Assembly (NCBI RefSeq): GCF_020438995.1
Contig: NZ_JAGQTN010000206.1
Location: forward strand, 1 to 48,969
DNA: 48,969 nucleotides
Source of the DNA: Gordonia sp. (in: high G+C Gram-positive bacteria)
GTDB taxonomy: Bacteria > Actinomycetota > Actinomycetes > Mycobacteriales > Mycobacteriaceae
Direction of reading: 5' to 3'
Shown here one piece after another: positions 20,121 through 23,926 of this stretch (the stretch's first letter is position 1; each line of letters starts with the position of its first letter). Both the position numbers and the translations under genes were made by a program. The notes beneath the pieces were generated by a model that worked only from the letters and a program-made list of their open reading frames with translations, ran no database searches and was not told the origin of the DNA.

Positions 20121-20281
20121 GCCGATTCTCACCGGACCCTTCGCGACCCTCGCTCCTTCGTCGCAACGGCCTCAGGGATCAAGACGTGTCCCCGACACAC
20201 CTTCGACACAAGCACCTTCTTGATCCCTGAGGCCAAAGCGACGAAGGAGGGAGGGACGCGTTGGGTCCGGTGAGAATCGGC
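20121..20281. repeat. Long inverted-repeat element (family A, copy 1) in convergent gap
   Basis: Two arms of about 64 bp (20121-20184 and 20218-20281) are nearly perfect reverse complements around a 33-base loop. Landmarks on the left arm are TCTCACCGGACCC, CTCCTTCGTCGC and CTCAGGGATCAAGA; the right arm has their complements. It fills the gap between mutT3 and the convergent LeuA-domain gene and would form a large hairpin in either transcript, so a bidirectional terminator role is likely. The same arms recur at 28115-28397. Confidence 0.9.
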
Positions 20282-20296
20282 TCTCAATTGACGACA

Positions 20297-20662
20297 TCAA
20301 CCATGCAATCGGTTGGCGCCTGCGACCAGGGCGTTGACGTTGGCGTCGTCGCCGGTGGTGCCGGTGCCGTACGCCCAGCGCTGGGTGCCGTTGTGTTCAC
20401 ACAGCAGGTAGGTGGCGAACGCGTTGTCGGTGCGGCGCTGGCGTAGCGCGACGATGGCGACGGGGGCGCCGATGTCGTGCAGGATCGACGTCATCGCGCC
20501 GACGGGGCCGGTGGCGGTGGCGTGCAGTGACAGCAGGTCGTCGGCGACCGCGAGGGTGGCCTGGCAGTCGATCATGTCGTGGCCGGCGGGCTTGGTGTGA
20601 AACGCGGCCAGCCGGATGCGGCCGTCGCCGGAGTACCTGTCGGTGAAGTCTTCCCAGGTCAT
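20297..20662 (-). CDS. Free-standing LeuA regulatory-domain protein
   Basis: This 121-residue protein resembles only the C-terminal allosteric (leucine-binding) domain of 2-isopropylmalate synthase. The segments LHATATGPVGAM, DIGAPVAIVAL, FATYLL and a final WAYGTGTTGDDANVNALVAG run parallel to the SGSGNGPLAAF ... DVGFDVAVLDY ... VWGVGI ... AVNRA pattern of actinobacterial LeuA. Its first residues (TWEDFTDRY) resemble the linker helix just before that domain (MWDVFAEEY in LeuA, from memory). No catalytic TIM barrel is present or encoded nearby. The ATG at 20662 has GAGGAGG upstream; the open frame continues to 20752 without support. It is preceded by a Leu-rich leader peptide and attenuator. 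Likely roles are modulating LeuA by mixed assembly or acting as a leucine sensor; this is inference. Confidence 0.78.
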   Translation of the reverse strand: MTWEDFTDRYSGDGRIRLAAFHTKPAGHDMIDCQATLAVADDLLSLHATATGPVGAMTSILHDIGAPVAIVALRQRRTDNAFATYLLCEHNGTQRWAYGTGTTGDDANVNALVAGANRLHG

Positions 20663-20803
20663 GGTGGATGCCTCCTCACGGATCCCGGAGGGCAGGGTGT
20701 GCCGACCGGGGTTACGTGCCGAGCATGTCTGGGCGGGATGAACGGTAAACATCGAATCTGCTCATTTCGGTCGAACTGAAGTTGACCGACTAAGGCACGC
20801 AAG

Positions 20804-20847
20804 CCGACCCGCAGCGGGGGGTCGGTCGAGATCAGACCCCGCTGCGG
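20804..20847 (-). terminator. Leucine attenuator: competing terminator and antiterminator
   Basis: In the minus-strand transcript, CCGACCC...GGGTCGG (20804-20825) forms a 7-bp GC terminator stem. The 11-base CCGCAGCGGGG at 20837-20847, inside the end of the leader peptide, can pair with CCCCGCTGCGG at 20809-20819, which overlaps the terminator stem and loop. The two folds exclude each other. Stalling on Leu codons just upstream would favour the antiterminator. No U-tract follows the stem. Confidence 0.65.
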
Positions 20848-20882
20848 CGGGCTACGAGAAGAAGCGGACCTGCTTTGAGCAC
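20832..20882 (-). CDS. Leader peptide MLKAGPLLLVARRSGV (16 aa)
   Basis: A 17-codon ORF from GTG (20882) to TGA (20832) encodes three consecutive Leu codons followed by Val, plus an early Leu. It lies between the promoter and the attenuator hairpins of the LeuA-domain gene. Its stop overlaps the 5' part of the antiterminator region, as expected for a ribosome-controlled attenuator. A TACCCT -10 box stands seven bases before the GTG, so the leader is probably translated from a leaderless transcript. Confidence 0.7.
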   Translation of the reverse strand: MLKAGPLLLVARRSGV

Positions 20883-20889
20883 GGGGTCG

Positions 20890-20931
20890 AGGGTACACCC
20901 TCACGCCGCGAAAGTGTGAACCGTTTCACAC
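20890..20931 (-). promoter_or_regulatory. Promoter and palindrome upstream of the leader peptide
   Basis: On the minus strand TACCCT (20890-20895) is a -10 candidate seven bases before the leader GTG. Further upstream, GTGTGAA-nnnn-TTCACAC (20914-20931) is a perfect 7-bp inverted repeat in operator position. It begins only a few bases after the thiE stop. The regulator is unknown. Confidence 0.55.
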
Positions 20932-20936
20932 TCAGG

Positions 20937-21656
20937 TCAGTGACCTGGGGTGATGTCGGTTCCGGTGATGCCCACTGCGGTGATGCCTACGGTGAGGGCA
21001 CGGGCGGCGGCCCCGGGATCGTCGGCCGCGGTGATGGCGCGCACGACGACGATGCGCCCGGCCCCGGCCGCGGCCACCTCGGGCAGCCGCCGGGCGTCGA
21101 TACCGCCGATCGCGAACCACGGCTTGCCGGGCACACTGGCGGCGACCTCGCGAACGAGGCCCAGGCCGGGCGCGGTACGGCCGGGTTTGGTGGGTGTGGG
21201 CCAGCACGGTCCGACGCAGAAGTAGTCGACGTCCCGGTCGGCTGCCGCGGCGGCCGCCTGGGTGGCGTCGTGGGTGGACTGCCCGATGATCATCTCCTCG
21301 CCGACGATCTCGCGGGCCTGCGCCGGGGTCAGATCGCCCTGCCCGACGTGCAGGACGTCGGCACCCGACAATCGGGCGAGGTCGGCACGGTCGTTGACCG
21401 ACAGCAACGCCCCGCCGGCGTGGGTGATCTCGCGTAGCCGGGCGAGGATCGCGAGTTCCTCGGCCGCTTCGAGGGCACCGAATTGTTTCTCACCGGCCGA
21501 TCCCTTGTCCCGCAGCTGCACGATGTCGACACCGCCGGCGACTGCTTTGGCGACGAACTCGTCGAGGTCGCCGAGTTCGCGGCGGGCGTCGGTACACAGG
21601 TACAGGCGGGCGCAGGCGAGCCGGTCATGGATGTGACGGGCCGGCCTGTTGTGCAT
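20937..21656 (-). CDS. thiE: Thiamine-phosphate synthase
   Basis: This 239-residue TIM-barrel enzyme joins HMP-diphosphate and thiazole phosphate to give thiamine phosphate. Conserved blocks are [47 protein letters not shown] and [13 protein letters not shown] place the start at ATG 21656, which matches the M. tuberculosis N-terminus. A GTG at 21668 overlapping the upstream stop is the alternative and would couple translation to the aldo-keto reductase. It is transcribed opposite to thiO-S-G, so it is not under their riboswitch. Confidence 0.96.
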
Positions 21657-22749: not shown

Positions 22750-22857
22750 TACCCTGGACGGAAGGAAACACGGGAGTCCGCGGGATCGCCGGGCTGAGAG
22801 TGCGGGTCGCCCCCGCAGACCGTCACACCTGATCCGGGTCATGCCGGCGAAGGGAGG
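22750..22857 (+). promoter_or_regulatory. TPP riboswitch (THI element) ahead of thiO
   Basis: The leader has the conserved THI-box parts in order: CACGGGAGTCC (from about 22768), GGCTGAGAG (22792-22800), a GCGGG/CCCGC variable stem, then ACCTGATCCGGGTCATGCCGG and GCGAAGGGAGG, ending six bases before the thiO GTG. TACCCT at 22750-22755 is the likely -10 box. The terminal GGGAGG can serve as the ribosome-binding site, so control is probably translational. It acts on the thiO-thiS-thiG operon. Confidence 0.93.
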
Positions 22858-22862
22858 TTGCT

Positions 22863-23926
22863 GTGACGCACGTGGGTGCGGATCGTCCTCGGACACTGAC
22901 GGTTGTCGGTGCGGGGGTGATCGGGCTGTGCTGCGGGCTGGCCGCCGCCGATGCCGGGTGGCGGGTCACTGTGCTGACCGACCCTGGCACCCCACGAGCC
23001 GCCGACGTGGCCGGTGGGATGCTCGGTTCGCTGGGTGAGGGTCATCCGGGCGAGGATGCGCTGCTGGAGATCACCGCCGATTCGGTGCGCCGCTGGCCGA
23101 CGCTGCTGGCCCGGCTCGATGATCCGGCGATCGTTTCCGCCGACGATTCGCTGTTCGTCGGGGTGACGGCCGCGGATGTGGCGTTCCTGACGCAACTCGC
23201 CCGGTTCGTGTGGTCGAAAGCGGTCGACGAGTCGGTGACGACACAATCAGGGTTGCGGCAGGTGACCGGGCGCGAGATCCGGGAACTGGAACCGTCTTTG
23301 GGGCCGCGTGCCATCGGTGGATTCCTGGCGTCGGGGGAAGGCGCAGTGGACAACCGGGCATTGTTGGCGGCGCTGGAAACCCGGCTGGTGGCGGCCGGTG
23401 GAATGGTGCGGGCGCACCGCGTCGATTCGCTCACCGATCTGCCCGGCGACCGGATCTTGGTGACCGCGGGTCTGGGATCGTCGAAACTTGTTGGCGGAAT
23501 TGATCTGTACCCCGCGAAGGGGGAGATCCTGCGGCTGTCGGCCAACGCGTGGTCGGTGCCCGGACCCCGGCATGTGGTGCGTGCCCGGGTCGGCGACAGG
23601 ATGGTGTACTTGGTGCCGCGCCGGGCCGGAATCGTGGTCGGTGCAACGCAATACGAACCGATCGATGCTTCGGACATGGCGCCGCGGGTGTCGGGGGTGG
23701 CCGATCTGCTGGCCGATGCACTTGAGGTGATGCCGGGTCTGGGCACCTACGATCTCGCCGAGGCGGGAGTCGGCTTTCGGCCGTGCACCGCCGACGGTCT
23801 GCCGGTGGTGCGGGCCGTCGACGATCGGGTGATCCTCGCCTGCGGCCACGGGCGCAACGGTATCGTGTTGGCGCCGTGGACCTCTCATCGTGTTGTCGAG
23901 ATTCTTGACGAAACCGGAGCGAACTG

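Follow-up and report, generated by a model that had tools for sequence, protein, structure and literature searches.

The leuA genes of actinobacteria carry the LEU element, which is described as a leader peptide with a conserved hairpin and a pseudoknot (Seliverstov, 2005, PMC1262725). Besides leuA, one transposase gene is reported there to contain such an element, and the mechanism was left open in 2005 (PMC1262725). The locus considered here lies in a stretch of 48,969 nt from Gordonia sp. (contig NZ_JAGQTN010000206.1 of assembly GCF_020438995.1; hereafter the window), in a genome whose closest named relative is Gordonia amarae (85% identical). Its minus strand carries a short gene, called the solo gene, which encodes a divergent LeuA-type regulatory domain without the catalytic barrel, behind a leader related to those of leuA. 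The reading favoured here, at slightly less than an even chance, is that the solo gene is a dedicated and conserved LeuA regulatory module, derived, along with its LEU leader, from a gene of leuA type, that is controlled by a translational switch tuned to valine and leucine and acts in trans, likely on LeuA. The gene and its leader, in window positions, comprise:

20297..20752, minus strand: stand-alone protein of a LeuA linker remnant and regulatory domain, 151 aa; alternative start ATG 20662 (121 aa)
20767..20772, minus strand: strand 5, GACCGA, ending 14 nt before the start codon; pairable with strand 4, which would close the start region
20784..20790, minus strand: strand 4, GTCGGTC, the 3' strand of the pseudoknot (pairing counts, leader alignments)
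20804..20810, minus strand: strand 3, GGGTCGG, partner in a competing GC hairpin (87.8% of cells paired)
20809..20819, minus strand: strand 2b, CCCCGCTGCGG, the 3' arm of hairpin P1 (pairing counts, leader alignments)
20821..20827, minus strand: strand 2a, GACCGAC, the 5' strand of the pseudoknot (pairing counts, leader alignments)
20837..20847, minus strand: strand 1, CCGCAGCGGGG, the 5' arm of P1 (pairing counts, leader alignments)
20832..20882, minus strand: leader peptide reading frame MLKAGPLLLVARRSGV with a GTG start (coding 20882-20835, stop 20834-20832)
20853..20864, minus strand: sensor codons CTT CTT CTC GTA (Leu-Leu-Leu-Val), from the leader codon count
20890..20895, minus strand: -10-like TACCCT, read from the sequence, 7 nt before the GTG that starts the leader frame

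The minus-strand open reading frame (ORF) ending at 20297 is confirmed, and its longest ATG start lies at 20752. The preliminary description took the product to be a catalysis-free LeuA tail of 121 aa; the domain is borne out by profile, profile-profile and structural evidence, but the start is not. Translation probably begins at ATG 20752 (151 aa) rather than at 20662, because the N-terminal extension is conserved in relatives and aligns with LeuA. This extension (MFTVHPAQTC...LPSGIREEA) is kept across Gordonia, frequently ends LPRGxREEAxGMSW in relatives and aligns with LPRRLQIEF of LeuA, and residues 15-150 of the predicted model match LeuA 439-643 in the structural alignment. The TIM barrel is not present (151 aa, against 617 aa for the LeuA frame of the same genome). 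The expected match to Pfam PF08502 (LeuA_dimer) is not found with the single protein: the 121-aa form scores 13.7 bits, under the cut-off of 24.9, the 151-aa form matches no Pfam family at E 0.1 or better, and plain phmmer with the window protein returns nothing credible. This failure, named in the preliminary description as a ground for refutation, is overturned because profile, profile-profile and structural evidence show a LeuA-type domain. PF08502 matches 31 of 54 relatives at E<=0.01 (best 5.6e-8), and the PDB profile search gives E 0.014 with 16 sequences and 1.7e-4 with 54. The solo protein is a divergent homologue of the LeuA_dimer domain and not a Pfam member. Within its own genome, the protein profile matches the solo locus and LeuA only, and the leader model (see below) gives significant scores at the solo locus and leuA only. 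The proposal that the solo gene is a leuA copy stripped of its barrel is supported; the copy is very likely an old one.

The residues of the LeuA effector pocket (list from PMC2704214) were mapped on an alignment of the 54 solo proteins. G533 is kept in all 54, A536 is A or G and L535 is V or I throughout, while the V551 position holds I (24), M (17), T (8) or V (5) and the Y554 position mostly F (37) or L (14). The exchanges at L535 and V551 are conservative, whereas Y554 and G531 are changed. Read from these alignments, a pocket for a hydrophobic amino acid seems to be kept in altered form.

Every one of the 59 genomes of the genus, its own included, has a match to the solo gene. In the family, read here as GTDB Mycobacteriaceae, 176 of 201 genomes match at E<=1e-3, an upper value that includes weak matches, some of them to LeuA-sized frames. 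An order-level search (at most 24 candidates scored per genome, E<=1e-5; 15 genomes without a match) yields frames under 300 aa only in the window's own family, with 19 of 20 family genomes among the matches listed. The gene is under purifying selection, the ratio of non-synonymous to synonymous substitution (dN/dS) being 0.02-0.43 in ten close pairs. In a tree of 23 solo proteins, 15 LeuA tails and 11 further tails of isopropylmalate synthases (IPMS), the solo proteins form one clade (support 100/99) on its own long branch; a recent truncation of the genome's own leuA is contradicted by this separate clade. When 4 kb on either side was compared at 22 representative loci, the solo gene was the only gene common to all, and the other neighbour clusters (at least 3 loci) are confined to Gordonia/Williamsia, to Rhodococcus or to Mycobacterium. 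An operon partner is accordingly rejected, as no neighbour is common to the 22 loci compared. A search for plasmid copies of the solo gene found none, and PHROGs gave no match for the solo protein.

The leader peptide MLKAGPLLLVARRSGV is confirmed at 20882-20835, and a leader peptide ORF precedes the solo gene in 79 of 80 named loci, the sole locus without one (L124) lying on a contig that starts just upstream of the gene. Examples are MKSILVTRRSGV (Gordonia sp. OPL2), MQRIQVVVHRRSGV (Prescottella) and VPRRLVVATRSGV (several Mycobacterium); the leuA leader of the window genome encodes MQRALLLGCRGGV. With sensor positions numbered back from the leader stop, leuA leaders have Leu at -9 in 29 of 30, at -8 in 30 of 30 and at -7 in 28 of 30. 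The 54 distinct solo leaders (133 entries; that of L031 is cut by a contig end) have at -9 Leu (24), Val (13), Ala (10), Ile (5) or Ser (2), at -8 Leu (30), Val (21) or another residue (3), and at -7 Val in 43. The sensor codons have thus moved from Leu-Leu-Leu in leuA towards Leu/Ile/Val-Leu/Val-Val in the solo leaders. Where the LEU element has a run of Leu codons, the window has three Leu codons and a Val; across the family the codons are a mixture of Leu, Ile and Val. Production "only when leucine is low", as first proposed, is not supported as a family rule, with Val at -7 in most leaders. Because of this shift, the signal seems, from the codons, to be branched-chain supply with a bias towards valine. 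At -7 the codon GTA stands in 95 of the 133 entries, duplicates included; it is rare in window genes (seven ORFs with 244 Val codons have it 3 times), and RNA pairing may also constrain the choice. A scan for the sigma-70 consensus found no site for the leader promoter; the -10-like TACCCT, if used, would yield a leaderless leader mRNA.

The 11-bp pairing of CCGCAGCGGGG with CCCCGCTGCGG, already noticed in the preliminary description, is upheld: across 40 leaders, 99.2% of the 720 cells of P1 and the 7-bp pseudoknot are paired, against 33-57% in slid-partner controls. The competing GC hairpin ACCGACCC/GGGTCGGT is present in the window but kept imperfectly in relatives. Nearer the gene, the helix of strands 4 and 5 scores -9.80 in 70 solo loci against -5.66 in shuffles; in 30 leuA leaders the values are -6.99 and -6.78, with no such helix. 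With a helix so placed, control seems to be exerted on translation. In the strand-by-pattern survey 4 of 40 rows, and in the analysis of the sensor-codon stem 6 loci, were left out where one strand was not matched; alignment A5 includes one antisense row (L101 minus).

A covariance model (R1), trained on 34 solo leaders only and with P1 as its sole structure, detects 30 of 30 leuA leaders tested, in agreement with the earlier claim that the control element is of leuA type. R1 has matches in 110 of 121 family genomes, mostly two to four in each, and finds nothing at ilvB (L140) nor at three weaker TIGR00118 matches. In a joint alignment with the leuA leaders, P1 and the pseudoknot are paired in 99.3% of 1159 cells, with double changes in 64 cells against 24.3 in shuffles; the fit cannot have produced the covariation of the pseudoknot, because the pseudoknot is absent from R1. 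The solo leader is related to the leuA leaders and shares leader peptide, hairpin and pseudoknot with the LEU element as described (PMC1262725). The LEU base stem, in which the Leu codons pair with the Shine-Dalgarno box, is not found in the solo leaders (-7.35 against -8.05 in shuffles, 71 loci); for leuA itself the values are -9.75 and -8.07 (27 loci), with 30% of shuffles as good. Because its sensor codons lack this pairing with the stretch that precedes the start codon, the solo leader is a relative of the LEU element and not a canonical member. A known Rfam leader was rejected, as a gathering search of the window gave only a tRNA and a thiamine pyrophosphate (TPP) riboswitch. An ilvB-type leader was rejected as well: R1 has no match at the ilvB leader of the same genome, whose peptide, read by eye, is MQFDFLVVLGRRVVA. 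Unlike the solo leader, it continues by eye into a hairpin and a T-run. Leader candidates rich in Leu/Val or Ile/Leu, for example MHAARLLVVRRSRL, precede a GACCGAC-like stretch at three distant relatives (L210, L211, L212), which suggests that diverged leaders exist outside the reach of R1.

These elements can be assembled into a switch. When charging with leucine or valine is low, the ribosome would stall on the sensor codons and P1 would form; the pseudoknot would hold strand 4 during the stall, leaving the start region open for the protein to be made. A ribosome that reaches the leader stop would cover the 5' arm of P1, strand 3 could then take strand 2a, and strand 4 would pair with strand 5 to close the start region, so that control would be exerted at the level of translation. 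The protein would bind a branched-chain amino acid in its altered pocket (Tyr554 to Phe/Leu) and act in trans. The most likely target is LeuA, whose own regulatory tail it would join or displace. Action in trans is probable because neighbours are not shared across Gordonia/Williamsia, Rhodococcus and Mycobacterium, and the simplest candidate partner is LeuA, since the module corresponds to its own tail and 45 of 46 sampled genomes have a LeuA. The best guess is a trans-acting LeuA regulator made when valine or leucine tRNA charging falls. Since the leader of this LeuA tail is biased to valine, the protein may be a brake on the leucine branch in valine shortage, which would retain 2-ketoisovalerate for valine. 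In its fullest form, a LeuA paralogue of Gordonia, Rhodococcus and Mycobacterium would have lost the enzyme to become a free branched-chain receptor, its leader re-tuned from Leu to Val and given a start-site helix, and would restrain LeuA in valine shortage, sparing 2-ketoisovalerate for valine and pantothenate; this account is rather unlikely to be right as a whole.

Several results weigh against the proposed module and its switch. Strand 3 is paired in 87.8% of cells on fixed columns and varies among relatives, and strands 4 and 5 are paired in only 71.3%, a weak count that arises because the position of strand 5 differs between lineages. Taken together, the pairings of strand 3 and of strands 4-5 are not above shuffles (229 of 500 as high, cells paired on fixed columns), and in the 70-locus test of strands 4-5, which includes near-copies, 9% of shuffles are as good. 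The stem between the sensor codons and the segment after P1 is only modestly above shuffles, and the fold of the window leader has a z-score of only -1.9. The -7 residue is not Val in 11 of 54 distinct leaders (Ala 9, Tyr 2), so that valine is only a tendency. R1 has no match in 7 sampled genomes of genus g3, although solo-like protein matches exist there, and for this reason the leader is not universal. Finally, mutation of G531 abolishes feedback inhibition in yeast IPMS (PMC2704214), and this position is Ala in 53 of 54 solo proteins.

With the same gene and leader, the protein might sense branched-chain amino acids as a free domain on behalf of a partner other than LeuA, such as another enzyme or a regulator, a possible though doubtful reading: leader codons and pocket have both shifted off leucine, no neighbour is shared by the 22 loci and the clade has its own long branch, but the fold and the linker remnant fit the LeuA module best and LeuA is present almost everywhere. 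At the RNA level, a classical transcription attenuator, in which a 1:2 antiterminator competes with a 2:3 terminator, is unlikely. The mutually exclusive pairings it needs exist in the window, and Actinobacteria use transcription attenuators at ilvB, with M. tuberculosis ilvB1 as precedent (PMC13236596). The GC terminator first proposed, however, is reduced to a hairpin: a scan for a GC hairpin with a U-tract found none on the minus strand of 20250-21000, a result that concerns intrinsic terminators, Rho-dependent and non-canonical termination lying outside it. The genome's own ilvB leader does show a hairpin and T-run; in relatives the 2:3 pairing is imperfect, and a start-proximal helix stands in its place. 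That the gene is a functionless decaying leuA fragment or a chance ORF is highly improbable. The protein is short and under the Pfam cut-off, and a recent leuA-tail duplicate does exist in a Gordonia genome (G048), but presence in 59 of 59 genus genomes, the dN/dS values, the leader in 79 of 80 loci and the well-supported clade already contradict this reading.

The partial duplicate in G048 (L205) is a 263-aa minus-strand frame with linker and regulatory domain, about 3 kb from a full-length leuA tail; it is a barrel-less leuA tail in the making. The same genome holds a 175-aa frame (L206, G048:C1:3345000-3347500) with a LeuA-tail match at E 2.6e-11 to the solo profile and no leader match. Thirteen IPMS-sized paralogues (L190-L202), for which the label LeuA2 was coined in this analysis, come from 12 genomes of the window's family and one of another. 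R1 finds a LEU-type leader at 12 of the 13 loci, and with the solo profile 7 of the 12 tails found outscore the best LeuA1 tail. LeuA2 differs from the solo gene in its enzyme-sized frames, in leader peptides such as MTFRGLLLGRRGGA and in not forming one clade. From these scores an origin of the solo gene from LeuA2 specifically is possible, but the midpoint-rooted tree does not place the solo clade inside LeuA2 and LeuA2 is not monophyletic.

Just downstream of the solo gene lies a 64-nt inverted repeat (20121-20184 and 20218-20281, 89% complementary). The genome has 221 copies of its core CTTGATCCCYGAGGCC with no more than 1 mismatch, and none of the reversed control; the repeat is a member of a REP-like family. 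Upstream, the neighbour in Gordonia is presumably a thiE relative, while the solo gene has its own leader. The TPP riboswitch (RF00059, 57.4 bits) is at 22760-22873 on the plus strand, followed by a gene that we take to resemble thiO/thiG.

With its strong conservation in a major bacterial family, the solo gene is a candidate regulator, overlooked because the single sequence falls under database cut-offs. If the favoured reading is right, an allosteric domain can turn into a separate trans-acting protein while retaining its ancestral RNA switch; in the fullest form of the account, two amino acid branches would be cross-regulated through a detached allosteric domain. The LEU element could also be tested here in a natural setting, with two related leaders in one cell that differ in sensor codons and output helices. 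Judged from open-access listings, neither a LeuA domain standing alone nor a LEU element in front of such a gene has a paper of its own.

Among known systems for comparison is IlvN, a separate regulatory subunit of acetohydroxyacid synthase that is encoded beside its catalytic partner. It resembles the solo protein in being a regulatory domain made as its own protein, but has an ACT fold and a gene that adjoins that of its partner. The regulatory domain of citramalate synthase with isoleucine (3F6G/3F6H) was solved as a domain but belongs to a full enzyme. Compared with the regulatory domain of M. tuberculosis LeuA (1SR9/3FIG), the solo protein lacks the TIM barrel and has a shortened linker, its predicted model is 21% identical in the structural alignment, and Y554 is replaced by Phe/Leu and G531 by Ala. 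In contrast to the LEU element, the solo leader precedes a barrel-less gene, its sensor codons are Leu/Ile/Val-Val and a helix of strands 4 and 5 lies near the start codon. The LeuA regulatory domain and the LEU element are each already known, and the solo locus joins a variant of the one to a variant of the other.
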